From NCBI GenBank assembly GCA_945612775.1, contig CALZAF010000004.1, positions 1 through 57,178 on the forward strand: DNA of 57,178 nucleotides, written 5' to 3'. Each line of letters opens with the position of its first letter. Position 1 is the first letter of the stretch. A program made the translations under genes and the position numbers. The notes beneath the pieces were generated by a model that saw only the letters and a list, made by a program, of their open reading frames with translations, ran no database searches and was not told the origin of the DNA. Of this stretch, positions 11,825 through 30,400 are shown one piece after another. The stretch is from an uncultured bacterium (GTDB lineage: Bacteria > Bacteroidota > Bacteroidia > Bacteroidales > Muribaculaceae).

Positions 11825-12649
11825 TTACTCTCCGTTCTGTCCGCGGTATGCATCCACAGCGGCTTTCACCTGACCGTGCAGCAAGAGCAGGCGTTTTGCC
11901 TCATCGTAAGGCAAACCGAGCTCTTCCACCACCATGCGAGTGCCGCGGTCCACGAGTTTTGCGTTCGATAGCTGCATGTTCACCATCTTGTTGCCTTTCA
12001 CGCGACCCATCTGTATCATCACCGAGGTAGTGATCATGTTGCAGATGAGCTTTTGACCTGTGCCGCTCTTCATGCGCGAACTGCCCGTAACATATTCAGG
12101 ACCCACCACCATCACTATGCCTATCTCAGCCACTTCGGTGATTGGGGCGTCGGGATTGCTGCAGATGCCTGCTGTGAGACATCCAAATTGGCGAGCCGCC
12201 TTGAGTGCGCCAAGCACATAGGGTGTAGTGCCCGAGGCTGCAATGCCTATCACGGTGTCGTTGGGCGTGATGTTAAATGCTTCGAGGTCCTTCCAGCCCT
12301 GTTCGGTGTCGTCTTCGGCATTTTCCACCGGGTTGCGCAGCGCTGTGTCGCCACCGGCTATGATACCTATCACCCACGATGGGTCCATACCGAATGTTGG
12401 AGGAATCTCCGATGCGTCGAGCACGCCGAGACGGCCCGAGGTGCCAGCGCCCATATAGAAGATTCTACCGCCGCGCTTCATTCGTTCCACTATGCCATCC
12501 ACCAGTTTCTCGATTTGTGGAATAGCTGCACCCACCGCATCAGCCACCTTGTGGTCCTCACGATTGATGTCGGTGAGGATTTCAAGGGTCGATTTTTTCT
12601 CAAGGTCGTTATAGAGCGAAGATTGTTCGCTGATTTTCACAAATGCCAT
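11825..12649 (-). CDS. murQ: N-acetylmuramic acid 6-phosphate etherase
   Basis: MurQ cleaves the D-lactyl ether of MurNAc-6-phosphate, giving GlcNAc-6-phosphate and D-lactate, in the cytoplasm. The 274-residue protein has the family's SIS-domain signature: LTDINREDHKVADAV, then FYMGAGTSGRLGVLDASEIP, GIAASGTTPYVLGAL, and TGSSRMKSGTGQKLICNMIT. Length is slightly short of the usual 295-300, but all core motifs are present. It lies 73 bp after the MurK-like kinase, which would supply its substrate, and is the last gene of the cluster. Confidence 0.95.
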   Translation of the reverse strand: MAFVKISEQSSLYNDLEKKSTLEILTDINREDHKVADAVGAAIPQIEKLVDGIVERMKRGGRIFYMGAGTSGRLGVLDASEIPPTFGMDPSWVIGIIAGGDTALRNPVENAEDDTEQGWKDLEAFNITPNDTVIGIAASGTTPYVLGALKAARQFGCLTAGICSNPDAPITEVAEIGIVMVVGPEYVTGSSRMKSGTGQKLICNMITTSVMIQMGRVKGNKMVNMQLSNAKLVDRGTRMVVEELGLPYDEAKRLLLLHGQVKAAVDAYRGQNGE

Positions 12650-12722: not shown

Positions 12723-13565
12723 TTATTTTGAGTGATACTTCACAAGGCCTTGCATAGGGCTCTTGATGATAGTGCCAATCTTGATATACAATGCCGAAGC
12801 AGCTTCTTCAAGCACGTTGCGGTAGTGTAGCGCTACCGAACCCACGAAGTTAACCGGCAATTCCTTATAGTTGGCATAATTCTCCACGTTGCGCACGAAG
12901 AATGCCTTGAATTCGTTAAGCACCAAGCGATGGATAGCTGGTTCCTCGATATTCTTGCTCAAGAATGGCGACAACGATGCCAAGAAGCGGTTGCCACCCG
13001 GTTCGCGATACACCTTCTGAATGATGGCGCCGCGGTCGAGGTTGTAGGTCTTATAGAATTCTTCTTCGAGGTGTGCTGGCAACTGGCGCTTGAGCACATC
13101 GCCCACGAGGCGCTTGCCCAATACGGCACCACTACCCTCATCACCGAGGATATATCCCAATGGCGACACATTATCTACTATCTTCTCGCCATCGTAATAG
13201 CACGAGTTAGATCCAGTGCCGAGAATGCAAGCAATGCCCGGCTTGTCGCCGCACAGGGCGCGTGCTGCTGCAAGTAGGTCGGTATTGATTTCCACTTTGC
13301 CTGCCTTCGGCATATTACGGCGTATAGCTCGCTCCACTGCGCCATTAATTTCGGCATTGATGCAGCCTGCACCATAATAATAAACCTCTGTAACATCGTC
13401 GGCCGAGATGTGTGGCATTAGCTCTTTGGCTATTATCTCTGCCATCTGGTCTTCACTAAGCAACAATGCGTTCATTCCCTGAGTGAACACTTGCGCCACT
13501 CTTTCACTTCCGTTTAGCAGCACCCAGTCGGTCTTGGTACTGCCACAATCTGCAATTAAAATCAT
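12723..13565 (-). CDS. murK: BadF/BcrA-type sugar kinase, probable MurNAc kinase MurK
   Basis: A 280-residue ASKHA-fold kinase. MILIADCGSTKTDW at the N-terminus is the phosphate-1 motif, CILGTGSNSC and ILGDEGSGAVLG are the second phosphate and adenosine regions, and FVGSVA the last. I chose the ATG at 13565 because it opens directly on the DCGSTKT motif and overlaps the MurT stop as ATGA; a longer reading adds 57 unrelated residues lying inside murT. Family members phosphorylate GlcNAc, glucosamine or MurNAc. Position between a MurT-like permease and MurQ, as in Tannerella forsythia murTKQ, points to MurNAc 6-phosphorylation. A diverged paralogue lies at 30695-31543. Confidence 0.8.
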   Translation of the reverse strand: MILIADCGSTKTDWVLLNGSERVAQVFTQGMNALLLSEDQMAEIIAKELMPHISADDVTEVYYYGAGCINAEINGAVERAIRRNMPKAGKVEINTDLLAAARALCGDKPGIACILGTGSNSCYYDGEKIVDNVSPLGYILGDEGSGAVLGKRLVGDVLKRQLPAHLEEEFYKTYNLDRGAIIQKVYREPGGNRFLASLSPFLSKNIEEPAIHRLVLNEFKAFFVRNVENYANYKELPVNFVGSVALHYRNVLEEAASALYIKIGTIIKSPMQGLVKYHSK

Positions 13566-14782
13566 ATCTTTATATAAATTTTCTTTTTGTATAATACATA
13601 TCCGATGCACCATACGATGCAAACTGTGGTTATGGCATACAGCAACGATGCCATATCCACCCAACTCTCTCCTACAAGCCCCATCCACAAGTTTTTGTAG
13701 ATAAGGTTGTGAATCGAAACACTCTCTCCGAACCATGGCAACTTGATGGTACCAAACAAGGTGCTCACCACACTGCCCATAAGATACATAAACAGCGGAT
13801 TGACGCCGAACGATTCGAAGAACTTACACCAGCGATGATACCCCTTGATGTCGATTACCCATATCAAGATGCCGAGCAGTGATGCCGCCATGCCGCAGGT
13901 CATCAGCGTATAGGTGGGCGACCATAGGTTCTTATTCAGTGGCATTGCGTAGCTTAGCAGCCATGCCACCATCATCATTATCACACCTGCCAAGAGCAAA
14001 TTACGTACACGCTCATAATTGTCCTTAACGGTGCTTATCATTTTACCAAACAGTAGTCCTATCAGCACATGGGCTATAGCTGGGATGGTGCTGCAGAGGC
14101 CTTCGGGGTCGAATGCCGGACGAAGCACTTCTTGCAAGCCATATCCTTGCGTAAGCGTAAGGTCTTGCGCTACCACCGACCAGTTGCCTGCATGATACAT
14201 GTGCTGGGGTGTGAGTATCGCATTATCAATGCGATAGATTATATTGTCGAGCGACACTTCATAGCCGTGACCCAATAGCAGTATCAGCGAATACACCACA
14301 AGCAGCGCTGCCGCTATCCATGGTATGCGCCTTATGCTCACTGTGCTGGCTATGATGGCTGTGGCGAAGTAGCAGATACCCAAGCGCTGAAGCACGCCGA
14401 GTATGCGCAGGCTCTCGAGGTTGTTGACGGCTTCGGCTATGCTGCCGCCTCCCGACAGGGTGTAGCAGAAGTGGCTAAACCACTGTATAGCCCATCCTAT
14501 CAAGAACAGCACTATAGAGCGTCGCAATATCTTGATAAACGATTTAGTGGTGAGGCGGAAATCAAATTTCTTGAGCGAAAAATATGTTGCCGCACCCATA
14601 ATGAACATGAAAAATGGGAACACGAGGTCGGTTGGAGTCAATCCATCCCACTCTGCATGGCGAAGCGGTGCATAGATGTGCCCCCACGAACCTGGGTTGT
14701 TCACCAATATCATACCGGCTATAGTGATGCCGCGTATGATGTCGAGCGATAGTAGTCGGCTGCTTTTTACGGTTTCTCCCAT
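13562..14782 (-). CDS. murT: DUF5009/COG4299 polytopic membrane protein, probable MurNAc transporter MurT
   Basis: A 406-residue inner-membrane protein with about ten hydrophobic segments. SRLLSLDIIRGITIAGMILV and VFPFFMFIMGAATYFSLKK match the COG4299 family related to heparan-alpha-glucosaminide acetyltransferase. The T. forsythia MurNAc transporter, as I recall, belongs to this family and sits in murTKQ, so transport of MurNAc is the best inference; an acetyltransferase role remains possible. I start at the ATG at 14782, 13 bp after the dehydrogenase stop; the next upstream ATG overlaps that gene by about 30 nt. The stop overlaps the murK start by 4 nt. Confidence 0.72.
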   Translation of the reverse strand: MGETVKSSRLLSLDIIRGITIAGMILVNNPGSWGHIYAPLRHAEWDGLTPTDLVFPFFMFIMGAATYFSLKKFDFRLTTKSFIKILRRSIVLFLIGWAIQWFSHFCYTLSGGGSIAEAVNNLESLRILGVLQRLGICYFATAIIASTVSIRRIPWIAAALLVVYSLILLLGHGYEVSLDNIIYRIDNAILTPQHMYHAGNWSVVAQDLTLTQGYGLQEVLRPAFDPEGLCSTIPAIAHVLIGLLFGKMISTVKDNYERVRNLLLAGVIMMMVAWLLSYAMPLNKNLWSPTYTLMTCGMAASLLGILIWVIDIKGYHRWCKFFESFGVNPLFMYLMGSVVSTLFGTIKLPWFGESVSIHNLIYKNLWMGLVGESWVDMASLLYAITTVCIVWCIGYVLYKKKIYIKI

Positions 14783-14795
14783 AATTTTTGTCGAT

Positions 14796-17588
14796 TTATT
14801 TTTTTTTAGGTGTTGTACATTCATCAATCAAATACACAAGCGACTGATAAGGTATGCCGGAATTGGTGGTAAGACCTATCTCGCAAGTGCGACTATTAGA
14901 GAATCCGCGCTTTATGCCGCCGCGCTCTATCTGCGGACGCAGTTTGCGAAGCCCGTATTCATTGAGTTCTGGCGTAAAGAAGCCCTTATCGCCGGCAAAA
15001 CCGCAGCATCCCACTTCCTCAGGCACAAGCACTTGGCTCGAGCAGCGCTCGGCGAGTGCCAAAAGTTTGCCTGCTATGCCCATACGGCGGGTAGAGCATG
15101 TGAGGTGTATGGCTATTGGTTCATCGGTACGCTTAAAGTCGAGGCTATCTGCCACATAATCATGGATAAACTCCATCAATTCGAGCGGATGCACGCGCTT
15201 CATGTTCTCACGCATGCGGTGCAAACATGGACTTTGGTCGCACACCACTGGATATTTGCCGCCTTCCGACGCCTTGAGCAGCGCTTCTTCGAGCTGAAGG
15301 GTCTTTTTGTCGGCTATATCCATCATTCCCTTGCTTTCCCATATAGTGCCGCAGCACAGATTATGCATATTTTCGGGGAAAATCACTTCCCAACCCGATT
15401 TTTGCAAGAATGCCACTACCACATCCACCAAATCGGCTTTTTTGCCGCCTGCTTTGCTGTAGCCCATGGTCTGATTCAAGCAACTTGGGAAATAAACCAC
15501 CTTTTTGTCGCTCGGACTAACATAAATGTCGCGGCTATAGTGTGCCGTAGGCAGCGATGGAGTCCACAATGGCACACCCACCTTGTGCAGAGCATTGCCC
15601 ACCGAGCGCACCACCTTGTCGCCAAGTATGCTCTGTGCCACTCCGGCTGCTGTGAGCACTGGTTTGAGCGCTGCAAAGGTTGCTCCCAGATTGTCAGCCA
15701 CAAATTCGCCCACCTTGTAGCCCAATCCGCCCTTCGGCAAGGCTTCGGCGCGCAAATCGTGTATCATTTCGCCCACATTTATCTTCATAGGGCACGATGT
15801 GCTGCACATGCCATCGCCGGCGCAGGTCTCGTTGCCGTAATATTTAAATTGCTCTTCTAGTCGGCTCAGGCGCTGTGGGTCTTCGCCGGTGGCGCGTAGG
15901 CGCGACATCTCGCGCTGCACCACTATGCGCTGACGCGACGAGAGGGTGAAACCGCAACTCATGCAGTTCACTTCGCAGAATCCGCACTCTATGCACTTAT
16001 TCACATGGTCGTTGGTCAATGGCAGCGGTTTGAAGCCCTTGATGTAGCATTCGGGGTCGTCGTTGAAGATTACGCCCGGATTTAATATTCCGTCAGGGTC
16101 GAACAATGCCTTCACTTCACACATCAGCTGATAAGCTTTCTCGCCCCACTCGTGCTTCACAAATGGCGCCATATTGCGGCCAGTGCCGTGTTCTGCCTTG
16201 AGCGAACCGTCGTATTTATCCACCACCAGACGCTCTATCTCGAGCATCAGATTCTGATATTTCTTCACATCGGCATCGGTTTCAAACGATTGTGCGATGA
16301 TGAAGTGGTAATTTCCTTCGAGAGCATGCCCGTAGATGCAAGAATCGTCGTAACCGTGCTTGAGGAGCATCGCCTCAAGGTCTTGGGTGGCTTGGGTGAG
16401 GTCTTCGATATGGAATGCTATGTCCTCGATGATAACCGTAGTGCCGAGTTTGCGTGTTCCGCCCACCGATGGGAATATACCCGATCGGATAGCCCAATAC
16501 TTGGAGTATTCGGCAGGATTGTCGGTAAAGTTGGCTGGCACATATAGGTTGAATGGCGCTATGAGTGCCTTTATCTTCTCGATGTTGGCTTCGAGTTCTT
16601 CCTTGGTGTCGGCTTTTGTCTCGGTAAGCACCGCGGTGAGGCCTTCGCCTGTGGGGTCATCTACCGAAGAGAGCGATTTTTTGTCGAGAATCTCGGCGCT
16701 GAACACCGGTCCGGGCTTCATAGCCACCACAGCGTCGCAGGCCTCCTTCATGGTCGAGAAGTAGAGCATGGCGCTTGCCGAGTGCTTGTATAGGTGGCCT
16801 GTCTTCATGGTGAACTCGCTACCGAATGCCAATGTACCCTCCGAACCCACCAAAAGGTGAGCAATTATCTCAAATGGGTCGGTGTACATCACAAATGGGT
16901 AGATGTTGAGCCCGGTAACATTTTTTATCGAGTATTTGCGGCGAATGCGGTTGGCGAGTTCATCGTCTGCCATCACGCGGTCGCGTAGTTCTTCGATTTT
17001 CTTCAGAAAGTCAGGATGCGTCTTGGCAAATTCTTCGCGGCTGGCTGGGTCGCCAGTGTCGAGTATTGTGCCGTCGGCGAGTACGAGGCGGGCGCTTATC
17101 AACTCTCGGTCGCTATTGGCGTGCGTACCGCAGTTCATACCCGAGGCATTGTTCATCACTATGCCTCCCACCATTGCCGACTTCTTCGAGGCTGGGTCGG
17201 GGCTGAAAATCTTGCCGTATGGCGCCAAAATCTCATTCACGCGCTGACCCACAATGCCAGGTTGAAGCTTGATGCTTGAGCCATCGGCTGCCACCTCATA
17301 TTTTTCCCAATTCTTGCCTGCCACTATCAATATCGAGTCGGAGATGGCTTGACCCGACAGACTCGTACCTGCTGCGCGGAAGGTTACCGGAAGCTGCAGG
17401 TCGCTTGCATCGCGAAGCAGGTGCGACACCTCATCTTCGCTCGTGGAGCGAACCACTATCTGTGGCAAGCGGCGGTAGAACCCAGCATCTGTTCCCCATG
17501 CCAAGCAGTGCAAATCGTCGGTATATAGCCGCTCGGCTGGTATGTAGGTTGCTACCCTATCATAGTATTGTTTGTATTTAGCATCCAT
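14796..17588 (-). CDS. FAD-binding and Fe-S D-2-hydroxyacid dehydrogenase, probable D-lactate dehydrogenase
   Basis: A 930-residue fusion. The N-terminal half is a GlcD/VAO-type FAD domain (FRAAGTSLSGQAISDS; GGIVMNNASGMNCGTH; HALEGNYHFI; AEHGTGRNMAPFVKHEWG). Next come two cysteine clusters for 4Fe-4S centres, CIECGFCEVNC and CAGDGMCSTSCP, then a GlpC-like region with two CCG motifs (NLCCGTIWESKG and VGCCGFAGDKGF). The architecture resembles E. coli YdiJ and quinone-linked D-lactate dehydrogenases. D-lactate and D-2-hydroxyglutarate are both plausible substrates by family. Its place 13 bp before murT, in an operon ending in MurQ, which makes D-lactate, favours D-lactate oxidation with electrons passed to menaquinone. 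Confidence 0.82.
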   Translation of the reverse strand: MDAKYKQYYDRVATYIPAERLYTDDLHCLAWGTDAGFYRRLPQIVVRSTSEDEVSHLLRDASDLQLPVTFRAAGTSLSGQAISDSILIVAGKNWEKYEVAADGSSIKLQPGIVGQRVNEILAPYGKIFSPDPASKKSAMVGGIVMNNASGMNCGTHANSDRELISARLVLADGTILDTGDPASREEFAKTHPDFLKKIEELRDRVMADDELANRIRRKYSIKNVTGLNIYPFVMYTDPFEIIAHLLVGSEGTLAFGSEFTMKTGHLYKHSASAMLYFSTMKEACDAVVAMKPGPVFSAEILDKKSLSSVDDPTGEGLTAVLTETKADTKEELEANIEKIKALIAPFNLYVPANFTDNPAEYSKYWAIRSGIFPSVGGTRKLGTTVIIEDIAFHIEDLTQATQDLEAMLLKHGYDDSCIYGHALEGNYHFIIAQSFETDADVKKYQNLMLEIERLVVDKYDGSLKAEHGTGRNMAPFVKHEWGEKAYQLMCEVKALFDPDGILNPGVIFNDDPECYIKGFKPLPLTNDHVNKCIECGFCEVNCMSCGFTLSSRQRIVVQREMSRLRATGEDPQRLSRLEEQFKYYGNETCAGDGMCSTSCPMKINVGEMIHDLRAEALPKGGLGYKVGEFVADNLGATFAALKPVLTAAGVAQSILGDKVVRSVGNALHKVGVPLWTPSLPTAHYSRDIYVSPSDKKVVYFPSCLNQTMGYSKAGGKKADLVDVVVAFLQKSGWEVIFPENMHNLCCGTIWESKGMMDIADKKTLQLEEALLKASEGGKYPVVCDQSPCLHRMRENMKRVHPLELMEFIHDYVADSLDFKRTDEPIAIHLTCSTRRMGIAGKLLALAERCSSQVLVPEEVGCCGFAGDKGFFTPELNEYGLRKLRPQIERGGIKRGFSNSRTCEIGLTTNSGIPYQSLVYLIDECTTPKKK

Positions 17589-17674: not shown

Positions 17675-18904
17675 TTATCGGTATAGGTAATATCGGCTCG
17701 AGGCAAGGCGGAATGCGTCGGCATCCTTGTTCCAATAGTCGATAATATCTGCTACCTTATAGTTCTTCGACATCATCTTGCGTATCTTATCGGTACCGCA
17801 AACCTTGTCGAACATATTAAACCGTGCCTTAAATGCCTCGTCGAATGCCAAGTGGTCGGGGTACATGTCGGCAAGCACTTCGATTGCGTAGAATTGTATC
17901 AAAGTCAGGTCGCAATCTACTGCGTCGGTGATATACACTTGCACGCCTTGCACATTCTTGCCCTGACAAGCGCTATAGAATGGCTTAACATATATCGGGC
18001 GGAATATCACGCCTTTCAAGCCGAGTGCATTCATACGCTTGGTGAACGCCTGTGCATCAATCCATTCTTGACAGAAAAGTTGGAATGGAAGGGTGTAGCC
18101 GATGCCTATGTGCAAATATGGTGTCTCGCCAATGATGCCGGTAGCAGCGTAGTAGTAAGAGTGCGCTGCCTGTGGCACGTGAGGCGATGGCAATATCCAT
18201 GGCATGCCGGTTTGCTCGAATGTCATATATCTATGCCAGCCTTCCATTGGCACCACTGTCAGGTCGCACTTCACGCCTTTGGTAAGCAGACCCTCATTAT
18301 TGAGATACAGCGCAAGTTCGCCTGGAGTGAGTCCATAGAGGTAAGGTATAGGATATTTGCTCACAAATGAGAAGAATCCTTCTTCCACCAAGCATCCTTC
18401 CACCTTGTTGCCGCCAAGCGGATTGGGGCGGTCGAGCACCATAAACTGCTTGCCATTTTCGGCACAGGCTTCCATGCACACACCCATCGAACTGATAAAT
18501 GTGTATGATCGGCAACCGTTATCCTGGATGTCGTAGATTAGCACATCTATATCGTCGAGCATCTCCTTGGTGGGCTTATGGCTCTTGCCGTAGAGCGAAT
18601 ACACCTTCACACCAGTAGCTGGATCTACGCTGTTATCTACCTTGTCGCCGGCATGCACATCGCCGCGAACACCGTGTTCGGGTGCAAATAATGCCACAAG
18701 CTGCACGCCCTCGGCTTCAGCCAAGATATCGACGGTAGATTTAAGTTTGTTGTCAACGCCTGTAGGATTGGTAAGCAATCCCACACGCTTGCCTTTGAGT
18801 TGGGCAAAACCGCCGTCGCGAAGCACTTCGATGCCTGGCTTTACCGTAGCGCTCATCGCCATAGTTACTACCGCCAAGGCAAGTGTCAAAATATATTTCT
18901 TCAT
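17675..18904 (-). CDS. namZ: DUF1343 (GH171) exo-beta-N-acetylmuramidase, NamZ-like
   Basis: A 409-residue exported protein: MKKYILTLALAVVTMAMSA is a signal peptide, and I start at the ATG at 18904 because longer readings run through ampG. Family landmarks are GKRVGLLTNPTGVD, LFAPEHGVRGDVHAGDKV, VYSLYGKSHKPTKEML, VLIYDIQDNGCRSYTFISSM, VLDRPNPLGG and ILPSPHVPQAAHSYYYAATG. Characterised members (YbbC/NamZ of Bacillus subtilis and Tannerella) remove terminal MurNAc from peptide-free glycan. The MurT-MurK-MurQ genes downstream would use the released sugar. It starts 32 bp after ampG; the hairpin at 17620-17667 follows it. Confidence 0.85.
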   Translation of the reverse strand: MKKYILTLALAVVTMAMSATVKPGIEVLRDGGFAQLKGKRVGLLTNPTGVDNKLKSTVDILAEAEGVQLVALFAPEHGVRGDVHAGDKVDNSVDPATGVKVYSLYGKSHKPTKEMLDDIDVLIYDIQDNGCRSYTFISSMGVCMEACAENGKQFMVLDRPNPLGGNKVEGCLVEEGFFSFVSKYPIPYLYGLTPGELALYLNNEGLLTKGVKCDLTVVPMEGWHRYMTFEQTGMPWILPSPHVPQAAHSYYYAATGIIGETPYLHIGIGYTLPFQLFCQEWIDAQAFTKRMNALGLKGVIFRPIYVKPFYSACQGKNVQGVQVYITDAVDCDLTLIQFYAIEVLADMYPDHLAFDEAFKARFNMFDKVCGTDKIRKMMSKNYKVADIIDYWNKDADAFRLASSRYYLYR

Positions 18905-18936: not shown

Positions 18937-20259
18937 TTATTTCTTTCCGTATTCTGGATCTATCTTGCGATCCACAAGGTAGGTAACCACCAGCGTTGCT
19001 ACGCAGCATGCCATTACCATCCAGAAGAAGTTGACGTAACCTATGGCTTCCTGAATGTAGCCGGCGCCAAAGCCTGGCAACATCATACTCAATGCCATAA
19101 ATGCTGTGCAGATGGCATAGTGCGATGTCTTGAACTCGCCTTCCGAGAAATACATCATATAGAGCATATAGGCTGTGAAACCAAAACCGTAACCAAATTG
19201 CTCGATGCACAATGCTGTGGTGATTACCACAAGGTTGGTTGGCTGAAATGCAGCCAGATACACAAATGTAAGGCATGGCAGTGTCATACCTGCTGCCATC
19301 CACCATAGCGACTTCTTAAGACCGAGCTTCGAGGCAAACACGCCACCTATAATACCGCCTGCAAGAAGTGCCACAACGCCTATTGTGCCATATACTATTC
19401 CCACTGTCTCAGTCGATAAGCCGAGGCCGCCTTCTGAGGTGGGATGTACGAGGAATGGCATACATAGCTTGATGAGGAAGCCTTCGGGCAAGCGATAAAG
19501 CAGCATAAATGCTATTGCGAGCAAGCAACCGGGCTTAGTGATAAACGAAGCAAACGATTTGAGAAACTCGGTGACGCCTGCTGTTGCCGAAGCGCCTTCG
19601 CTAATGCGTGGTTTGTCATCGGCTGAATGTGGTAACACGAAGACGTGGTAAAGGGTTATTAAGCAAAATACAACTGCACTCACGCCAAGCGTAATTTGCC
19701 ATGATAGAGGTATGTTCTCGGGATTATTGTTCTCGATAAGACCAGCTATTGCCACCAATACGCCTTGTCCGAACACCGATGCTATGCGGTAGAATGTGCT
19801 TCGCACACCTATAAACGCTGCTTGGCTGCTTGGACTGTGGGCAAGCATATAATAGCCGTCGGCTGCAATGTCGTGCGTTGCCGAAGCAAATGCGGCAATG
19901 ATAAACAGTATGAGCGTGAGTGTGAACATACTGATAGGTGTTGCCCCCGATGTGATGGTTGCCACATCAGGTTTTGGCAATGTGAGTGTCAGGAGCACCA
20001 TCAGGGCTGTCATAAGCACCTGCATGGTCACTATCCACCAGCGTTTAGTCTTTACCACATCCACGATAGGTCCCCACAAGCCCTTCAAGAACCATGGGAA
20101 GTAGAGAAGTGTGGTGAAGAATGCCATGTCGCCGTTGGGCACGCCCATCTTGGTGAACATCATCACCGATATGTTATTTACCACGAAATAAGGTACACCT
20201 TCGGCAAAATATAGCGTAGGTACCCACCACCAGGGATTTTTCTGTTCTGTGTTACTCAT
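18937..20259 (-). CDS. ampG: AmpG-like MFS permease for muropeptides or anhydro-sugars
   Basis: A 440-residue, about 12-helix inner-membrane transporter. The opening WWWVPTLYFAEGVPYFVVNN and MGVPNGDMAFFTTLLYFPWF, with GLWGPIVD and FASATHDIAADGYY, match AmpG-type carriers, which import GlcNAc-anhydroMurNAc and its peptides by proton symport. The start at 20259 overlaps the spoIID stop by 8 nt. Neighbouring genes are all of peptidoglycan type, strengthening the call, though the exact cargo in this species is not known. Confidence 0.8.
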   Translation of the reverse strand: MSNTEQKNPWWWVPTLYFAEGVPYFVVNNISVMMFTKMGVPNGDMAFFTTLLYFPWFLKGLWGPIVDVVKTKRWWIVTMQVLMTALMVLLTLTLPKPDVATITSGATPISMFTLTLILFIIAAFASATHDIAADGYYMLAHSPSSQAAFIGVRSTFYRIASVFGQGVLVAIAGLIENNNPENIPLSWQITLGVSAVVFCLITLYHVFVLPHSADDKPRISEGASATAGVTEFLKSFASFITKPGCLLAIAFMLLYRLPEGFLIKLCMPFLVHPTSEGGLGLSTETVGIVYGTIGVVALLAGGIIGGVFASKLGLKKSLWWMAAGMTLPCLTFVYLAAFQPTNLVVITTALCIEQFGYGFGFTAYMLYMMYFSEGEFKTSHYAICTAFMALSMMLPGFGAGYIQEAIGYVNFFWMVMACCVATLVVTYLVDRKIDPEYGKK

Positions 20260-21580
20260 GATTATAAAGTGTTGTTATTTGTGCATTGATAAAATAATGT
20301 AACAATATGTCCTTGTAGTTATAGCCTTGCTCGCCCATCACGGCTGCGCCTATCTGGCACAAACCCACGCCGTGGCCCCAGCCTGCGCCCTTGAGCACAA
20401 ACTTCTGCGGGAATCCGTCGGCATCGATATCGTGACGCTCTACGATAAACGCCGAGCTATATAGGTGCGATGGCGATAATGTGCGGCGTATGTCGAGTTC
20501 CTTGCCTATGATGCGGCTATATTTGTCGCCCACAATCTTGAGCTTGTAGAGACGACCGCTGGTGCCGCGTGCCACTGGCTGAAGGTCCTTTATCTTGCCA
20601 TAATCCACGCCCGAGCGCTCGCGAATGAGCTTGCTTATCTCATCTTGGGTATATTCCACGCGCCAGCGATAGAAGTCGTGAGTCTCTTGGTCGTAGTTGT
20701 TGAGCACTTGCGATAGTATGTGTGCATCGGTGGTGTTACAGAATGCCTTTGGCTTGGTGAGAATCCATTCTTCGGCATTGGCTTCCTTGGTAAGGTCAGG
20801 GAAATTGTCCTCGTCCTTATCGTCGCGCTTTGCCACCAAATAGGGATAATGCTTAGGTTCCCAACAATTCTCAAATTCTTCATACACGCCGCCACAGCAT
20901 TTCGAGAATCGAGCATCGCAGAGTTCGCCGTCGTAGGTCAATACCTTGCCGAAAGTTGCCTCAATGGCTTGGCGCACGGCTTCAGTTGATGCGCGGGTAA
21001 TTCCTTGATAGCGTTGACAGTGGTCGTCGGCGCATACGTCGAAGTTCACATGGTCCTCGCGGTCCCACCAGCGTATAACTTCGCCTTCGCTCTCCTCGAT
21101 AGCGCTATATGTCTCGTTGCTGTCGTCGATTTTCTTGCGTTTTTCGATTTGCGACAACAGCCAGCTGCGCGATATCACTGCATGAGCCTTGAGCAGCTCG
21201 AGCGATGCAGTGGCGCTCATCTCCGATGAGATTACGCTCAGCAGATAGTCCTCCACCGAGAGTATGTTCACGGCTGTGAGTTTGCCATTTTCCACTATAA
21301 GTTTCAGCGAACCGCTAAACACTTGGTTCTCCTTGCGCTCCCAGTGGAAATTCACGCCTATGGTTACGCCTATGAGCGTAAACGAGCCCGAGGCTGCATC
21401 GCATGGCTCGAACAGCACCTCATCGTGCTCCTCGCCATTCCACAGCACCTTGCCCTGCTTACATTCGGCACTCTGAGCACCGCTATACACTGCTCCACCA
21501 GCGCGATAGTCGCCGTTGAGCACAAATTCCAGTAGTGGTTCGCTCATTATTCCCACTTTCACTTGAGGAATATTACCCAT
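20252..21580 (-). CDS. SpoIID/LytB domain protein without visible export signal
   Basis: A 442-residue protein with a central SpoIID domain. VISSEMSATASLELLKAHAV carries Glu120 at the place of the catalytic Glu of SpoIID, a lytic transglycosylase acting on peptide-free glycan, and GWGHGVGLCQIGAAVMG near the C-terminus is the second family signature. The N-terminus (MGNIPQVKVGIMSEP) has no signal peptide or membrane segment, and no upstream in-frame start supplies one, which is odd for a wall enzyme. It may act in the cytoplasm on imported glycans or be exported by another route. It follows the DUF4922 gene by 11 bp and overlaps ampG by 8 nt. Confidence 0.82.
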   Translation of the reverse strand: MGNIPQVKVGIMSEPLLEFVLNGDYRAGGAVYSGAQSAECKQGKVLWNGEEHDEVLFEPCDAASGSFTLIGVTIGVNFHWERKENQVFSGSLKLIVENGKLTAVNILSVEDYLLSVISSEMSATASLELLKAHAVISRSWLLSQIEKRKKIDDSNETYSAIEESEGEVIRWWDREDHVNFDVCADDHCQRYQGITRASTEAVRQAIEATFGKVLTYDGELCDARFSKCCGGVYEEFENCWEPKHYPYLVAKRDDKDEDNFPDLTKEANAEEWILTKPKAFCNTTDAHILSQVLNNYDQETHDFYRWRVEYTQDEISKLIRERSGVDYGKIKDLQPVARGTSGRLYKLKIVGDKYSRIIGKELDIRRTLSPSHLYSSAFIVERHDIDADGFPQKFVLKGAGWGHGVGLCQIGAAVMGEQGYNYKDILLHYFINAQITTLYNHE

Positions 21581-21591
21581 ATATGTAGATT

Positions 21592-22536
21592 TTAAGATTT
21601 ATTTTCGTTTTCTATAATATCTGCGATTTCGTCGTAGGAGTAGCACACCTCGCCGAAAATCTGCTCTATCTCTCGCACCCCTATCTTATAGAAATCTTTC
21701 TCAAGGGGTATCGCCAACACTCCGCCCATATCCACCGAAGCTGGCGAAATCAGTATGTTGTCATCGCCCTCGGCATCGTAGCACGACGGCCGGTGACGCT
21801 TGCGTGGAAACACGCTTATGGTCCACTCGCGGCAGCTCTTTGAGCACAGCACATTCACCATGGGTTCGCTATCGCCAGCTGGCACTGGCAGCATCTCCAT
21901 CAGGCGGTGAAACATTTCTGCCCCACTCTCTATGCTCATTGCCCTTATCACCACTGCAGCTCGAGCTATGTTAGCTACGCCCATCACAGCATCGCCTTTT
22001 CGCAGCAATATGTCTTCGCCCACCCTGCTAAGGTCGCTCAGCCAGGGCATAAAACCTTTGTTGCCGGCTTGAAAGTGCATGTGGTCGGGAGCCGAGGCCC
22101 CGCAATGCGGTCCGTTGTAGAAGATTTCGTAGTCGCCGAAGGCTTCAGCCATTTCCATCATGTGAGCCATCCGCCCCGCTATGCGCTGGTCGGTGTGGCG
22201 GCTGCACACCACGGTGAAATGCTTGGGAAAGATGGGATAAGGATTCACCAGAACCTTATATTCATCGTCCCAGGCTAACGACTGCTGCTCCACCGGGCGA
22301 TTCTCGTCGCACAAGAAGCATCTGCGTGCCTTGAGCGACGCTGCATCGATTTTTGCAGCACTCGAACGAATGCGGGCGGGGTTGAACTGGACTTTAAAAG
22401 TGGCATCTTCCACCTTAACCGTCTTGATTTTCACGCTATCAAGCGCGGCAAACCCATTCTTCACCATAGGCCATTCAGCCAACTGGCGCTCGAAGAGGTG
22501 TTCCAATTCATCCCCGGTTATCCGCTTCATCTTCAT
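21592..22536 (-). CDS. DUF4922 protein, HIT/GalT-superfamily nucleotidyltransferase or phosphorylase-like
   Basis: The 314-residue protein matches the DUF4922 family as I know it. RRCFLCDENRP holds a CxxC (Cys73, Cys76), LVNPYPIFPKHFTVVCSRH resembles the conserved core of HIT-fold enzymes, and ASAPDHMHFQAG contains an H-x-H-x-Q triad (His152, His154, Gln156) as in galactose-1-phosphate uridylyltransferase. These enzymes form a nucleotidyl-histidine intermediate, so a reaction on a nucleotide-sugar or sugar-1-phosphate is expected. It lies 11 bp before spoIID in the MurNAc cluster. Its substrate is unknown; a role in MurNAc or GlcNAc activation is speculation. Confidence 0.72.
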   Translation of the reverse strand: MKMKRITGDELEHLFERQLAEWPMVKNGFAALDSVKIKTVKVEDATFKVQFNPARIRSSAAKIDAASLKARRCFLCDENRPVEQQSLAWDDEYKVLVNPYPIFPKHFTVVCSRHTDQRIAGRMAHMMEMAEAFGDYEIFYNGPHCGASAPDHMHFQAGNKGFMPWLSDLSRVGEDILLRKGDAVMGVANIARAAVVIRAMSIESGAEMFHRLMEMLPVPAGDSEPMVNVLCSKSCREWTISVFPRKRHRPSCYDAEGDDNILISPASVDMGGVLAIPLEKDFYKIGVREIEQIFGEVCYSYDEIADIIENENKS

Positions 22537-22624: not shown

Positions 22625-24106
22625 TTACTTCTTTGCCTTGTTCATAGCGATGCGCGCCTTCAACTCCCATGTGCGGATACGATCCTTATAGGTATTGTTG
22701 CGGTTCATCTTTTCTACGTCGAGGGCTGCGTCGCTATTGTCGTCCCAACGGCGGCATAGGTAAACCGACTTATACACGCGACCAATCTGATAGATGCGCG
22801 ACATGTTCAAGCCCAATGCATAGTCTTCGCCATAGTTCACTGCTGGCAACTTCATCGAGCGGAGCACTGGAGTGTAGAATGCACGAGGTGCGCCGAGGCC
22901 GTTGATGCGGAGTGCATTGTTGCGACCATTTTCTGGAGTCCATTCGCGGTGATCTACGAGGCCTGGAGGCAAAATGTTGCGGTTGATGTCGGTGAGTGTG
23001 TAAGAACCCACTACCATAGCGCAATTCTGTTCGTAGAAGGCGTTTACCATAGTGGTAAGGGTGTTTTCGTCTTCATATACGTCGTCGCTGTCGAGCTGAA
23101 CGCAGAATTTACCTGCCTGCTCGTGGTGTGCTGCAAGGTTCCAGCATGCGCCTACGCCTATATCGCCCACTATCATGTGTATCACTTGTGGATTGTTGCC
23201 AAAGCGCTCCTTGATGATTTCAGTAGTGCGGTCAGTTGAGCAGTTATCCACTACTATCACGTTAAACTTGAAGTCGCACTTCTGAGCGAGTGCGCTGTCG
23301 ATGGCGTCGGCAATAGTGCGCTCGCGGGTGCGTACTGGGATAATTACGGTAGCTTCTACTGGGAAATTGTCCTCGCTGAACTCGATGTGCTTAAACTCTG
23401 GTTCCAAGAAGCCGCCTATTTCCTTTAGGTGCTCGGTGCAAGCCTGCTCCATCTCTATCTGACGGCCGCGGTTGCGTGGATCAACGTAGTCGAACATCTT
23501 TTCGCCGCTCTTGCGGGTGTCGAGTTCGATATCGCTATATAGGAATTCATTGATGTGAGTCAATTCGGCAAATTGCGACAGCTTCAAGCGCAAGTCGTAG
23601 AGACCAGCAAACTTATAATCAGCCTTCATGGCAGCTGCTGCCTTCTTATAGCACTCTGAGCAGAATAGAAGCACCGAACCGAAGTCGAAATCGTCGCGCA
23701 AGCTACCGAACTGATAGTCGATAACTGGAGCCTTGGTGCTTGTTGGCAGACCTTCTTCGCTGTAGTGGTCGCCATTGTAGTGGTCGGCATATACCATACC
23801 GCTGAGGGTGTCGCATGCTATCTTCACCATGCGGTCGAGAGCAAATGGGCCGAACTTCAGGTTGTCGTACTTCTGATAATAGAGCACAAAGTCGCTGTCG
23901 GCTTTTTCAGCGATAGCTTTCATGGTCTTGCTCGAGGTCAAGCCATCGATTTTTATCACTTCACAGCCTTCTACGCTGCCTTCTGCCCCTTCGAGCTGAA
24001 GCAAATAGATTTTCTTAACCAAAGCATTTGCCTTTAATTCGGCTACTGTTGCCGACACTTGATTGGCATCGGCAAATGGAATAAAGCAATTAATTGTTTT
24101 AGCCAT
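22625..24106 (-). CDS. family 2 glycosyltransferase with an extra N-terminal domain
   Basis: A 493-residue soluble protein. The C-terminal part from about residue 255 is a GT-A family 2 domain: VEATVIIPVRTRERTIADAI, FNVIVVDNCSTD, VQLDSDDVYEDENTL (DSDD metal site) and INGLGAPRAFY. The first half (INCFIPFADANQVSATV, then VLYYQKYDNLKFGP) looks like a second, degenerate GT2-type fold. No membrane segment is seen, so it is probably cytoplasmic. It precedes the DUF4922 gene by 88 bp containing a stem-loop and may be the first gene of the MurNAc cluster. Acceptor and donor are unknown. Confidence 0.78.
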   Translation of the reverse strand: MAKTINCFIPFADANQVSATVAELKANALVKKIYLLQLEGAEGSVEGCEVIKIDGLTSSKTMKAIAEKADSDFVLYYQKYDNLKFGPFALDRMVKIACDTLSGMVYADHYNGDHYSEEGLPTSTKAPVIDYQFGSLRDDFDFGSVLLFCSECYKKAAAAMKADYKFAGLYDLRLKLSQFAELTHINEFLYSDIELDTRKSGEKMFDYVDPRNRGRQIEMEQACTEHLKEIGGFLEPEFKHIEFSEDNFPVEATVIIPVRTRERTIADAIDSALAQKCDFKFNVIVVDNCSTDRTTEIIKERFGNNPQVIHMIVGDIGVGACWNLAAHHEQAGKFCVQLDSDDVYEDENTLTTMVNAFYEQNCAMVVGSYTLTDINRNILPPGLVDHREWTPENGRNNALRINGLGAPRAFYTPVLRSMKLPAVNYGEDYALGLNMSRIYQIGRVYKSVYLCRRWDDNSDAALDVEKMNRNNTYKDRIRTWELKARIAMNKAKK

Positions 24107-24224: not shown

Positions 24225-27221
24225 TCACTTGCCGAAGAATCCAAGCACGCTCTGCATGAGCTGGCTGCGACTCTTCTCACACCCTATGGTTTCGAATGGC
24301 ATACCCATCACCACGGTGCGATAGCCGCCCATATCGGCTGCTATGCCTGCCGGAATGTTGTTTTCGCCATAGCGGAACACGGTTTTTGCCTTGTCGTTGG
24401 CTGGTATCACGCCGTCGGGCGACTCTACGCAATACACTTTCTCATTCAAACTCTGGCAGAACTCATATTCGCTGCCATAGGCAAACTGCTTGAATGGGCT
24501 TGCCACGGTGTAGAACTTGCCTTGCGTTGCTGCACGGCCTACGCGCCAGCTGTAGCCAAGCACTTGGCTGGCAAATTCTTGCTCCGCCTTGCCCGAACTG
24601 ATGCCGTCCCACACGTCGCTTGCCACATAGGCGCCGCTTATCATCACATTGCCGCCTGCGGCTGTATAGGCTGTGAGGGCTTCCATGAGTGGCTTTGTAA
24701 ATAGCTTGTAGCGGTTTGGCATTGCGCCGCTTCCCACCACTATCTCTTTCTGCTTGCCTGCAATAATGTCCACGGCAAAGTAGCCTTCGAGGCTGTGGCA
24801 TTGCTCTACTGCTTTTACACTTGATGACACAAACGAGTAACCTGCCTCAATTATTGCCTTGCCATGAAGATATGGGTAGTCGAATGTATTGCCGGCTATC
24901 ACCTTGTTCTCATAATTTGAGTGGCTGCCGCCAAATCCTGCTGCATCATCGTCGCGCCATGGCAAATTGCGGCGGAACTCAAATTGCGAACCGATGTGCG
25001 AAATATCGTACTTATAAGGCACGCCCGAATCTTTGTCGTTAAGGAATCCGGCATAGCAGCTGTCGCCTTCGCCGAGTGCAAACGAGTCGGGACCTGAAAT
25101 GCGTGTAAAGGCATTTACCACCATCACACAACCCTTAGAACCCGGAGCAATGCCGAGCGAAAGCACTTCGCTGTCGAAGCTGCGGCCGCCTTGGTTCATA
25201 GCCACCACCTTGTAGCTGTGTATCTTGTTATCTTTCACTGTGGTTGCATATTGTGGGTCGGTCACTACTGCCACTTCCACGAATGCACCGCCGTCAACGC
25301 GCTCAAGCACCACATACTTCTCGGCTGCTGCCTTGTCGCACTGTGGGTCGGCGGTTGGCTGCCATGTGAGCAAGAACTTGCCATTACCCTTGTCGGCAAT
25401 CGCAAACGAATTTACCGGCAATGGCTGCACCATATAGTCGCGGCCATCGCGCTTGGCTATAAACTCAAGCATACCCTTATATATGGCGCGGCTCACGGTG
25501 AAACGGAATGTTGGATCTAATCCGTAGCGCATGTCGGCAAAATTCTGGTGCGAAAGGAGTTCGAGCAACATGGTTGGCACTTCGGGAACGCGGGCTTCGT
25601 AGTACGACTTATCCCACATGCCACGACGGCTCCATTTGGGCTCAAAAAGTGCTCTAACGTCGTTGCAGATATTGGTAGAAATAGCATTTGTAAGGTGGCG
25701 TGAGTATCCGCGAGGAGTGCCATCGGCATAGTTGCCGAAATCTTGGCTCATATAGATGCCGAGTGTGCCCACAATGCTGTCGTTAGGTGTAGTTCCGGCG
25801 TCGGTGTGGAAGGCAAATGCCAAATCCACTGGCACATTCAGACCTGCGCGCTCGGGCAGCACTGCCGAACCGCCTGCAAGCCAGTTCACCCACTCGGCGC
25901 GACTGCGGAAGTCGTCATTATAGTCGTTGGCAAGCTGCGACTTGGTATATACCGAGTCGGGAGCGCCTGCCCACTGCAACCAGTAGCGTGCGCCCTCGCA
26001 GTATCGCGGATAACCCGAGGTCATATATGGGTAATCGATGTTCTCATCGTAGGTGTAACTTACCTTTTCATCGGCTTCGGGCTTCTTCACGCGGCGAGCT
26101 ATGTTGCCCATACCGCCGCCCACTTTCACTGCATCGGCTGTCACCACGCCATGGTGCTTCGATTCGTTGCTAAGCACCACCACATCGGGGTTCAAACCCT
26201 TTTTCAACGGGAAATGGCCGAGATATATCCATGTGCCTCCGCCCATACGCTGATTTATCTCGAAATGCTTCTGCCCGTCGAGGTAATTCACGGTGTAGTG
26301 CGCATCGCTCACACTCTCGGGAAGCGACTTATACGACACATATACTGCATATTCACCGTCCTCGGGCATCTCTACACTCCATGTGGCTGCCGACGAACCT
26401 GTGCCCTGTGCCTCCACTTGGCGATATGTTCCCTCGGCGAATGGGTTTTCATAATCTACATAGTAGTCTTTAGCCCATGCAAAACCAGCGCCTTCGCCTT
26501 GCTTCCACGCTTTGTTGCCATTAGTTTCCACATAGCCGGTCTGCGCTTTCGCACCGTCGTTATCCACCAGAATCTCGAAGTTGTGGATGTCGCGGTCGCG
26601 AGGACTCATCACATATGCACCTGCATTCTCGAGCATTGGCATCAAAAATGGCACCACATACGACTGGGTATAAAGGTCCTCAACGGTCTGATTCAGACGG
26701 GCGCGTTGCCATTCCCAGCGGTTGATCTTTGGCTCGAAATACCACCCATGGCTCTGCCACAGTGCTATCACGTTGTTGCAAAGGCCTTTTTCGTAGTTAT
26801 AGTTGGCATCGGCACGGCGCACGAATGTCTCATTGTGGCGAGCATATTTCTTATCGAATCCCTTAACGTAGTTGTCGATATTCTTGCCTGCTATGTCAAT
26901 TTTAACCTGATACTTCTTGTAATTTGCGCCAAGCAATGTGCGGAAGCTGCCTTTCAATGCTTCTACATCGGCTGCAGTGAACGGCACGTCGCCATAGGTG
27001 TCGTTAAGCGACACGCTCACCACCTTTTTCTTGCGGTTTACGTCAATCTTCTTCACAGCCACTGGTCCGATACCCATATTGGCTGGCACGGTGGTTGCCA
27101 ACATCTTTGTTGCCTTCTCCACAGTGGCTTTGCCAAGCGCTTCGGCCTGCATTTCTGCCGGATTTAGCACCATGCCCGACACAAGGGCCGCACCTATGAT
27201 AGCTATTATTGTCTTTTTCAT
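24225..27221 (-). CDS. secreted amidase_3-like protein with golvesin-type insertion (paralogue 1)
   Basis: A 998-residue exported protein (signal peptide about 1-26). Residues about 150-211 and 443-590 together read as a split N-acetylmuramoyl-L-alanine amidase: ALWQSHGWYF (His158), QTVEDLYTQ (Glu181), SPRDRD, DLAFAFHTDAG (His472) and MLLELLSHQN (Glu554) correspond to the zinc ligands and catalytic Glu of amidase_3. Between the halves lies a golvesin/xanthan-lyase-type beta domain (about 250-370, with YVSYKSLPESVSDAHYTV). A fibronectin-III-like domain (about 600-692) and a Rossmann-like C-terminal domain follow. Databases often call such proteins xanthan lyase. I infer removal of stem peptides from murein, which fits the downstream cluster. 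Confidence 0.7.
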   Translation of the reverse strand: MKKTIIAIIGAALVSGMVLNPAEMQAEALGKATVEKATKMLATTVPANMGIGPVAVKKIDVNRKKKVVSVSLNDTYGDVPFTAADVEALKGSFRTLLGANYKKYQVKIDIAGKNIDNYVKGFDKKYARHNETFVRRADANYNYEKGLCNNVIALWQSHGWYFEPKINRWEWQRARLNQTVEDLYTQSYVVPFLMPMLENAGAYVMSPRDRDIHNFEILVDNDGAKAQTGYVETNGNKAWKQGEGAGFAWAKDYYVDYENPFAEGTYRQVEAQGTGSSAATWSVEMPEDGEYAVYVSYKSLPESVSDAHYTVNYLDGQKHFEINQRMGGGTWIYLGHFPLKKGLNPDVVVLSNESKHHGVVTADAVKVGGGMGNIARRVKKPEADEKVSYTYDENIDYPYMTSGYPRYCEGARYWLQWAGAPDSVYTKSQLANDYNDDFRSRAEWVNWLAGGSAVLPERAGLNVPVDLAFAFHTDAGTTPNDSIVGTLGIYMSQDFGNYADGTPRGYSRHLTNAISTNICNDVRALFEPKWSRRGMWDKSYYEARVPEVPTMLLELLSHQNFADMRYGLDPTFRFTVSRAIYKGMLEFIAKRDGRDYMVQPLPVNSFAIADKGNGKFLLTWQPTADPQCDKAAAEKYVVLERVDGGAFVEVAVVTDPQYATTVKDNKIHSYKVVAMNQGGRSFDSEVLSLGIAPGSKGCVMVVNAFTRISGPDSFALGEGDSCYAGFLNDKDSGVPYKYDISHIGSQFEFRRNLPWRDDDAAGFGGSHSNYENKVIAGNTFDYPYLHGKAIIEAGYSFVSSSVKAVEQCHSLEGYFAVDIIAGKQKEIVVGSGAMPNRYKLFTKPLMEALTAYTAAGGNVMISGAYVASDVWDGISSGKAEQEFASQVLGYSWRVGRAATQGKFYTVASPFKQFAYGSEYEFCQSLNEKVYCVESPDGVIPANDKAKTVFRYGENNIPAGIAADMGGYRTVVMGMPFETIGCEKSRSQLMQSVLGFFGK

Positions 27222-27447: not shown

Positions 27448-30400
27448 CTATTTATCGGTCAAATAAATAAGTATTCTCTTCATGAGGTCGGCTCGTTGTG
27501 GAGCGCTATCTATTACCTCGAAGGGGAAACCCATTACCACGCTGCGATATGTGCCTAAATCGGCAGCTACAGCAGCCGACATATTGTTGTCGGAATACTT
27601 GATTATTGTGGTTCCGTTTTTGCCGCTTGGCAGTATGCCGTCGGGCGACTCTACGCTATAGACATCGGCGTTGGGAATGGTGGCAAATTGCCCTTCAATG
27701 CCGCGCTTCATCGTTGGCAGGGCTGTCTCGGTGGTGTAGAAGCGGCCTGAGGCTTCGGCTTGGCTCATGCGCCAGCGGTAGCCGAGCACTTCGCGGGCAA
27801 ACTTCATCTCTGCATCGCTGCGCTGGGTCTTATCCCAGATGTCGCTCGCCACATACGACCCGCTCAGGAGCACATTGCCGCCACTTGCAGTGTAATTGCT
27901 TATGGCATTAATCACATCCGTGGTGAATATCTTATATCGGTTGGGCACTGCGCCGCGCCCTATCTGCACTTCGCGCTGTTTGCCAAATATGAAATCTGCC
28001 ACCACATAGCCTTCGAGTGGCAGTCCGCCGACTACCGACTGCATGCTGGCGCTCACAAAACTATAACCTGCAGCCATAATTGCCTCGCCATGAGTGGCGG
28101 CGTAGTCGAAAGTATTGCCTGCCAAGACTTGCGTTTCGTAGGTTGCGTCGCATGCCCCAAATCCGCTCGAATCGTCGTGGTGCCATGGTTCGCTACGGCG
28201 GAACTCAAATTGCGGTCCCACATACGAGATGTCGCTCACATAGGGCACTCCTGAGTCTTTCTTATCGGTAAATCCGGCAAGCTGGTCGGATCCGCGATTG
28301 GTCTCGAACCAACTTGGTGCCGAAATTCGCGTGAATCCGTTCACCACCATCACCATGCCTTGGCTTTGAGGAGCTACTCCCACGGCAAGCACCTCCGATG
28401 GGAAACTGCGGCCGCCATCGTTCAGAGCTATAATGCGATAACTGCGTAGCTCGCCCTCGGGCACGCTCACCTCGTGGCTTGGGTTTTCCACCACTGCCAC
28501 CTGCCGGAATGCGCCGTCGGCCGCTCTTTCTTCCACAATATAGCGTTTTGCAGGTGCTCCGCCAAGGGTCAAAGTGTCCTCGGTAGGTTTCCACTCGAGG
28601 CGGAATCTACCGGCAGAGGTTGGCGTAATGGCAAAGGAATTTACCGGCAGCGGCTGAACTTCGTAGCTGCGCCCGTCGCGCTTGGATATAAACTCAAGTA
28701 TGCCTTTATAGATGGCGCGGCTCACAGTGAATCGGAAGGCTGGGTCGAGGCCGTACTTCATATCGGCAAAATTATGGTGCGACAGCAGTTCGAGAAGCAT
28801 GGTCGGCACTTCGGGCACTCGAGCTTCGTAGTACGACTTATCCCACATGCCGCGACGAGTCCAATCGGGCTCGTAAGCTGCTCGCACATCGTGCACTATG
28901 TTGGTCACAACGGCATCGGTGAGCAGTCGCGAATAGATGCGTGGCGTGCCATTGGCATAGTTGCCGAAATCCCGGGTCATATATATGCCGAGTGTGCCAA
29001 TAATGCCGTCGTCGGGCGTGGTGCCAGCATCGCTATGGAAGGCAAACGCCATATCCACAGGAATATTCAATCCTTGTCGCTCGGGCAGAACATCCGAACC
29101 GCCTGCTATCCAGTTCACCCACTCTGCACGGCTGCGAAAATCATCATTATAATCGTTGGTGAGATGCGATAGGCTATACACTGAGTCGGGCGCACCTGCC
29201 CATTGCAACCAGTAGCGCGAACCTTCGGTAAATCGTGGGTAGCGACTTGGTTGATACTGGTAGTCGATGCTCTCATCGTAGGTGTAGCCCACCTTTTCAT
29301 CGGCTTGGGGCTTCTCCACTCGGCGCGCCACGTTGCCCATGCCGCCGCCTATCTTCACAGCGTCGGCTGTCACCACGCCATCGTGCTGCGAGTGGTTGCT
29401 GAGCACCACCACATCGGGGTTTTCGCCCTTGCGAAGGGGGAACTCACCGAGATAAATCCATGTACCGCCGCCCATGCGCTGATTCACGCGAATTTCGCAT
29501 GCGCCAGCAAGGCTATTTACCACATATTTGGCATCGGAAACGCTCTGCGGCAACGATTTATACGAAACATATATGGCATAGCTGCCTGCGCTGGGCATAT
29601 CGGCGCTCCATCGAGCCGTAGATGCGTGTTTGGCATGCTTAGTGGTACGCACCTGGCGATATGTGCCCTCATTGAATGGATTTTCATAACCCACATATTG
29701 CTCACGTCGATAAGCAAAACCCGCATCAGCGCCTGCGCCCCATGACTTTCGTCCACTCGTTTCGGCATAAGCAGATTGCGCCAAAGCGCCGTCGTTGTCA
29801 ACTATCACTTCGGTGCTGTGCACATCGCGTTCGCGCGGACTCATCACGTATGCGCCTGCATTCTCGAGCATAGGCATCAAGAATGGCACCACATACGACT
29901 GTGTATAGAGGTCCTCAACGGTCTGCCACACGCGTGCTCTCTGCCACTCCCAGCGGTCGATCTTTGGCTCAAAATACCAGCCATGGCTCTGCCATAGAGC
30001 TATAATCTTGCCATCGAGTCCTCGAGCATAGTGGCGATTGGCATCGGCATATCTCACAAATCTACTCTCGCCTCGGGCATAGCGAGTGTCGTAAGTCGGC
30101 ATATAATCAGCCACGTCGCGGCCTTCGATGGTGATATGCACATCGTACTGGGCGAATTGCGCACCTGCCGCCTGCCGCATCTTTTTCTTCAGCACTTCGA
30201 TGGATTCGGGCGTGAATGGCACATCGGCATAAGCCGCATTGCAGTCCACCACCATAGAGTTTGTACTGGGATTAGCCGTAACGGAGTTAACCCCGACTTT
30301 GCCGATTTTCATCCCTTGGGGCACTGTCTGCCTCAAAATCTCGGCGGCATTGTCGATAAGGCATGCATCAATCGACTGCTGCGCCTTCGCAGCCTCGCCG

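Follow-up and report, generated by a model that had tools for sequence, protein, structure and literature searches.

Which reaction could a nucleotidyl-transferase-like enzyme perform among genes for the use of N-acetylmuramic acid (MurNAc)? The question is raised by a DUF4922 gene in the window, by which we mean the whole stretch of 57,178 nucleotides analysed here, from an uncultured Muribaculaceae bacterium. An earlier note, made from the letters of the DNA, had placed this gene in the MurNAc operon, assigned it a GalT/HIT-like nucleotidyl-transfer or phosphorolysis chemistry and envisaged a bypass from MurNAc or GlcNAc to nucleotide sugars.

The DUF4922 gene and its operon

The placement in the MurNAc operon is borne out by the surroundings of the gene (Table 1). 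The genes run in one direction from MurQ (11825) through a second kinase (31543), and Tannerella forsythia has the same order as one transcription unit, a single transcript whose promoter is activated by GppX in a reporter assay (PMC5388701). The T. forsythia ATCC 43037 locus (L146) contains a DUF4922 orthologue at 9001-9891, about 44% identical to the window protein and located between a glycosyltransferase and lytB. By gene order, the DUF4922 position corresponds to Tanf_08355, which is labelled "glycosyltransferase" (PMC5388701) and is probably mis-annotated.

Table 1. Features of the operon and of the DUF4922 gene (window coordinates)
Feature	Position	Strand	Basis
MurQ, N-acetylmuramic acid 6-phosphate etherase	11825..12649	-	TIGR00274 above cut-off
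MurK-like kinase	12723..13736	-	Profile; T. forsythia synteny
MurT-like (DUF5009/NagX) membrane protein	13562..14827	-	Profiles; T. forsythia MurT in the same place
NamZ-type exo-beta-N-acetylmuramidase with signal peptide	17675..18904	-	Profiles, hydropathy
AmpG-family muropeptide transporter	18937..20259	-	TIGR00901 E 3e-49 (below curated cut-off); operon position
SpoIID/LytB-domain protein, 442 aa, without signal peptide; E120 and Cys183/His187 kept	20252..21580	-	Profiles, alignment, hydropathy
DUF4922 protein, 314 aa, Apa2/GalT-like nucleotidyl-transferase fold	21592..22536	-	ATG start, Pfam, alignments, predicted fold
R245-K-R-H-R249, conserved C-terminal-domain arginines	21790..21804	-	Two alignments
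H152-M-H154-F-Q156, active-site motif; His154 predicted nucleotidylated nucleophile	22069..22083	-	H/H/Q invariant in 39 and 55 rows
H114, putative third ligand of the metal	22195..22197	-	Invariant in both alignments
NPYPI motif, aa 98-102	22231..22245	-	N98 and P99 invariant in both alignments
C73-F-L-C76, GalT-type metal ligands by prediction, together with H114 and H152	22309..22320	-	Invariant in both alignments
GT2, tandem GT-A glycosyltransferase, 493 aa, adjoining DUF4922	22625..24106	-	Profiles, synteny, model
Golvesin_C protein, putatively an amidase of the periplasm (weakly similar to Amidase_3)	24225..27221	-	Amidase_3 E 0.019, below cut-off

Several neighbors merit comment. The true start of the MurK-like kinase probably lies further downstream than called. 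An FAD-linked oxidase with an Fe-S half is encoded within the operon (14796-17588) and may oxidise the D-lactate from MurQ. Two similar, tandem Golvesin_C-type proteins of about 1000 residues (24225-27221 and 27448-30453), the first with weak Amidase_3 similarity, are candidate periplasmic amidases; 38 of 42 orthologues have an N-terminal hydrophobic segment by hydropathy, and the counterpart at the T. forsythia locus is annotated "xanthan lyase".

The DUF4922 protein matches its Pfam family (PF16269) at residues 14-159 with an E-value of 3.7e-64 (215.5 bits against a gathering score of 23.6) and is the only PF16269 protein found in a search of the window's genome. The open reading frame and its motifs, i.e. 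HxHxQ at 152/154/156, CxxC at 73/76 and NPYPI at 98-102 with H106 and H114, all lie where the earlier note had put them. We analysed two alignments, one of 39 diverse Bacteroidales orthologues, many less than 40% identical to the window protein, and one of 55 rows from 54 loci. Residues C73, C76, N98, P99, H106, H114, Q117, N141, H152, H154 and Q156 are invariant in both, as is R245, while R249 is invariant in the 39-sequence set and at least 90% conserved in the 55-row set. Such invariance across both alignments is far beyond chance and reveals that the enzyme is not degenerate. A triad mutated in most homologues was one of the outcomes that, according to the earlier note, would speak against its reading; all homologues in the alignments keep the triad intact.

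Predicted fold and chemistry

The AlphaFold2 model of the window protein, built with 55 sequences, has a pLDDT of 93.3 and a pTM of 0.92. In the Foldseek ranking the top match is Apa2, the Ap4A phosphorylase of yeast (E 1.9e-11); next come a DUF4931 protein, the ADP-glucose phosphorylase of plants and human GalT. With VIA-align, Apa2 superposes on the model with a Z of 23.4 (264 residues aligned, rmsd 3.0, 19% identity), and the other matches reach 11.5 (DUF4931), 10.7 (ADP-glucose phosphorylase) and about 9-10 (GalT). The structural comparison with GalT and related phosphorylases suggested in the earlier note thus upholds the superfamily fold, and Apa2 is far nearer than either GalT or ADP-glucose phosphorylase. 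GDP-galactose phosphorylase is not among the fold matches listed, an absence that excludes nothing; two papers on plant GDP-galactose phosphorylase are the only ones in which our literature search found DUF4922 mentioned.

Apa2 is also the solved structure closest by sequence (E 7.5e-8). The Ap4A_phos_N profile is matched by 37 of 39 DUF4922 orthologues (best 8e-9) and the C-terminal ATP_transf profile by 8 of 39, and both halves of DUF4922 are therefore related to Apa2. The window protein itself scores below the Ap4A_phos_N (PF19327) gathering score (19.5 versus 23.1 bits), and the profile search reported no ATP_transf match for it. It likewise fails the GalT profile TIGR01239 (14.4 bits versus a cut-off of 650), has no Pfam GalT match, and its similarity to galT_2 is weak and sub-threshold. 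Fold comparison and alignment together indicate an Apa1/Apa2-type two-domain fold with an invariant HxHxQ, and the DUF4922 protein is an intact, uncharacterised relative of Ap4A phosphorylase.

The invariant residues C73, C76, H114 and H152 form a predicted metal site with the ligand set of GalT, namely CxxC, a histidine and the first histidine of the catalytic motif. The zinc site of E. coli GalT consists of Cys52, Cys55, His115 and His164, with His166 as the nucleophile; the DUF4922 pattern reproduces these zinc ligands. Neither the CxxC nor H114 has a counterpart in Apa2 in the sequence and structure alignments. With the superfamily framework kept and the triad intact, the GalT/HIT-like fold and active site proposed in the earlier note hold. 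By analogy with the related families, the fold and chemistry class, i.e. passage through a nucleotidyl-His154 intermediate, are very probably as predicted, and nucleotidyl transfer via His154 can be considered well supported.

The proximity to Apa2 raises the alternative that DUF4922 is a bacterial Ap4A/ApnN phosphorylase for nucleotide house-cleaning or alarmone turnover, found in this operon by chance. In fold, no other match comes near Apa2 (Z of 11.5 or less), which is also the nearest solved structure by sequence, and both of its domains are recognisable in DUF4922. An activity on Ap4A was among the outcomes that the earlier note had set against its own reading. The invariant CxxC and H114 argue against this assignment, as does the genomic distribution of the family described below.

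A trio of co-occurring and fused genes

Among 247 Bacteroidales genomes, DUF4922 is present in 58, GT2 and SpoIID in 59 each, and MurQ in 54. GT2 accompanies DUF4922 in 57 of its 58 carriers, and so does SpoIID (Jaccard 0.95 each), and each of the two partners is found in only 2 of the 189 genomes without DUF4922. The Fisher p-value, 2e-52 for either partner, ignores relatedness and is therefore descriptive only. Genomes in which the three genes are not adjacent also have them together. The single unmatched carrier (G171) has a weak and partial DUF4922 match. Conversely, genome G245 (L209 3904-6487) encodes GT2 and SpoIID with intact catalytic residues and no detected DUF4922, which is thus not absolutely required. 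The overlap with MurQ is loose in comparison (32 of 58 carriers, Jaccard 0.40), and a tight MurQ link as the main association of DUF4922 was rejected on these grounds.

The recurrent gene order in Bacteroidales is GT2, DUF4922, SpoIID, AmpG. Across the flanks of 80 DUF4922 loci we found GT2 in 77, SpoIID in 71, AmpG in 70 and NamZ in 54, counts that are limited by contig ends. The same order is followed by all single-frame fusions, which join GT2 to DUF4922 (L052, L056, L057, L058 and L205), DUF4922 to SpoIID (L051, L054, L059, L060, L130, L153, L164, L165 and L204) or all three proteins (L055). Several fusions are common to related genomes and hence not all can be assembly errors, although single cases could be; the independence of the fusion events was judged solely from the family labels of the genomes.

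Outside Bacteroidales the GT2-DUF4922 pair is kept, with AmpG, SpoIID or an amidase nearby in some cases (e.g., L221-L224). In some Bacteroidales and in many genomes beyond, AmpG and SpoIID lie elsewhere, which leaves GT2-DUF4922 as the main adjacent pair. A peptidoglycan link therefore rests partly on SpoIID and AmpG. In two loci outside Bacteroidales (L213 6463-8930; L217 155-2624), a GT4-type glycosyltransferase directly follows SpoIID. A divergent GT2 lies directly before MurK and MurQ in the 61% complete genome G011 (L210 338-3539), where DUF4922 and SpoIID were not detected; this is another link of GT2 to MurNAc use. We also searched for functional clues around DUF4922 genes outside the cluster, where the flanks (LpxK, an S49 peptidase, a symporter, a methyltransferase) follow no consistent theme; AmiA-like amidases adjoin such genes in L037 and L163.

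We conclude that DUF4922 very probably belongs to a functional trio with GT2 and SpoIID. Near-perfect co-occurrence and fusion with a glycosyltransferase and a SpoIID protein ill suit a free-standing house-cleaning enzyme and, together with the residues absent from Apa2, leave the Ap4A phosphorylase assignment unlikely. The fusions place DUF4922 between GT2 and SpoIID, as would be expected of a catalytically dead scaffold or nucleotide sensor for that pair; with every catalytic and metal-ligand position invariant, this explanation is barely credible. Our literature search found no paper on SpoIID with DUF4922, or on SpoIID with AmpG, in Bacteroidota.

Predicted location and activities of the partners

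Hydropathy analysis finds hydrophobic N-termini above threshold in 4 of 113 SpoIID, 2 of 109 GT2 and none of 143 DUF4922 sequences, compared with 74 of 75 for NamZ. Few members of the three families have a long hydrophobic segment, and none of the families shows a typical membrane span. By prediction the SpoIID partner is neither exported nor anchored: 109 of 113 orthologues have no signal peptide, and it is fused to enzymes that carry no export signals. The trio beside AmpG is thus predicted to be cytosolic.

The SpoIID partner retains its domain (PF08486, E 1e-24), and across an alignment of 29 rows the catalytic E120 as well as C183 and H187 never vary. The SpoIID family acts on peptide-free glycan. 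The GT2 alignment has a mean column identity of 67%, and the GT2 model (pLDDT 89) reveals tandem GT-A domains whose nearest match across both is the E. coli K4 chondroitin polymerase (aa 1-490, Z 25); the rmsd of 21 indicates that the domain arrangement differs.

This likeness to two-headed chondroitin/heparosan synthases, which use two UDP-sugars, gives rise to a further alternative, in which DUF4922 would catalyse a Leloir-type exchange (NDP-sugar A + sugar-1-P B -> NDP-sugar B + sugar-1-P A) that feeds two donor sites of GT2. The invariant GalT-type CxxC/His/His/HxHxQ pattern, the weak galT_2 similarity and the GT2-DUF4922 fusions are all consistent with such an exchange, but the fold matches GalT less well, and we regard this reaction as rather improbable.

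Probable MurNAc auxotrophy and the suggested UDP-MurNAc bypass

No match to MurA or MurB was found in the window's genome (G000), nor in its family mates G593, G596 and G600, of which G593 and G600 are 98-99% complete; relatives have both enzymes. These four genomes all carry DUF4922, and the lack of MurA and MurB matches suggests that the lineage is, like T. forsythia, probably MurNAc-auxotrophic. A need for MurNAc salvage, the operon position and the presence of DUF4922 in all three MurA/MurB-lacking family mates would fit the bypass raised by the earlier note, with DUF4922 yielding UDP-MurNAc from MurNAc or GlcNAc derivatives.

However, contig 80 of the same genome has a gene for an AmgK-like kinase with a fused RapZ-like domain at the C-terminus (L195 29-1501) and, overlapping it, one for a MurU-like uridylyltransferase (L195 1498-2241) whose best solved match is the MurU structure 4y7t (E 1e-27). 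Both proteins are below the NCBIfam curated cut-offs. The pair is a candidate for UDP-MurNAc salvage other than DUF4922 and, judged by sequence similarity, would already convert MurNAc to UDP-MurNAc. Furthermore, DUF4922 is also common in genomes that have MurA and MurB, and MurQ is not detected in 26 of the 58 carriers. With the AmgK/MurU-like pair present, the bypass loses weight as the role of DUF4922; it is unlikely, and indeed strongly disfavored by this evidence.

Proposed role of the trio

Several observations in T. forsythia frame the remaining question. Both GlcNAc-anhMurNAc and GlcNAc-MurNAc are AmpG-dependent in this organism, which has no predicted AnmK orthologue, and the authors regard the cytosolic fate of the AmpG-imported disaccharides as an open question (PMC7670621).

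The trio lies beside AmpG, is predicted to be cytosolic and has a member from a glycan-acting family, and we therefore propose a role in the use of imported peptidoglycan sugars, for which we consider the chances evenly balanced. DUF4922 would be a cytoplasmic nucleotidyl-transfer enzyme of the GalT/Ap4A-phosphorylase branch of the HIT superfamily, in which (I) Cys73, Cys76, His114 and His152 may hold a structural metal, (II) His154 would attack a nucleotide substrate, most probably a nucleotide sugar, at its alpha phosphate to form a nucleotidyl-His intermediate, and (III) inorganic phosphate or a sugar 1-phosphate would resolve this intermediate. Together with the adjacent tandem-GT-A glycosyltransferase and the signal-less SpoIID as cytosolic partners, it would process or rebuild AmpG-imported GlcNAc-MurNAc and GlcNAc-anhydroMurNAc, with DUF4922 interconverting the NDP-sugar of the glycosyltransferase and NDP plus sugar 1-phosphate. 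We lean toward an NDP-sugar rather than Ap4A as the substrate; counting against this choice, the closest solved relative, Apa2, acts on Ap4A and not on NDP-sugars. Taken as a whole, the proposal of DUF4922 as the NDP-sugar-interconverting partner in a cytosolic peptidoglycan-sugar trio is a tentative one.

A more specific version would make the trio a new, nucleotide-dependent route for breaking down or rebuilding the imported disaccharides that bypasses NagZ and AnmK. The (anhydro)MurNAc end would be the target of SpoIID, while the tandem glycosyltransferase would transfer a sugar onto a nucleotide or off one (perhaps running backwards, with NDP accepting the sugar), and DUF4922 would phosphorolyse or reform the NDP-sugar, which amounts to a two-protein disaccharide phosphorylase. 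This version is quite doubtful.

In sum, the association of DUF4922 with GT2 and SpoIID suggests an unknown step of wall-sugar reuse in gut and oral Bacteroidota, and the trio offers three physically coupled candidate enzymes, Bacteroidales-wide, for the disaccharide-processing question in T. forsythia.

Comparison with known systems

We found no described pathway in the literature that combines a signal-less SpoIID fused to an Ap4A-phosphorylase-like enzyme with a tandem glycosyltransferase. The closest known counterpart of the operon is the muropeptide/MurNAc operon Tanf_08345-08385 of T. forsythia, which has the same gene order, although the window has the FAD-linked oxidase gene in addition. 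Apa2 (PDB: 4i5t, 4i5v, 4i5w; PF19327 and PF09830) has in common with DUF4922 the two-domain fold, the HxHxQ motif and a weak but repeated profile similarity over both halves. In contrast, DUF4922 is bacterial, has the extra CxxC and His114, and is part of a module with a glycosyltransferase, SpoIID and AmpG. GalT and plant ADP-glucose phosphorylase (PDB: 1gup, 5in3, 2h39) display the CxxC...H...HxHxQ pattern and the superfamily fold, yet reach a Z of only 9-11, and a GalT profile match was never above threshold. The DUF4931 protein BCE0241 (PDB: 4qvu), second-best by fold, is likewise uncharacterised, but it is a shorter protein, and the match spans just part of DUF4922. Finally, the SpoIID lytic transglycosylases (PDB: 4rwr, 5i1t, 5txu) and the SpoIID partner have the domain, the catalytic Glu and the Cys/His in common; contrary to these known enzymes, the partner has no signal peptide, and the enzymes to which it is fused in some genomes likewise lack export signals.
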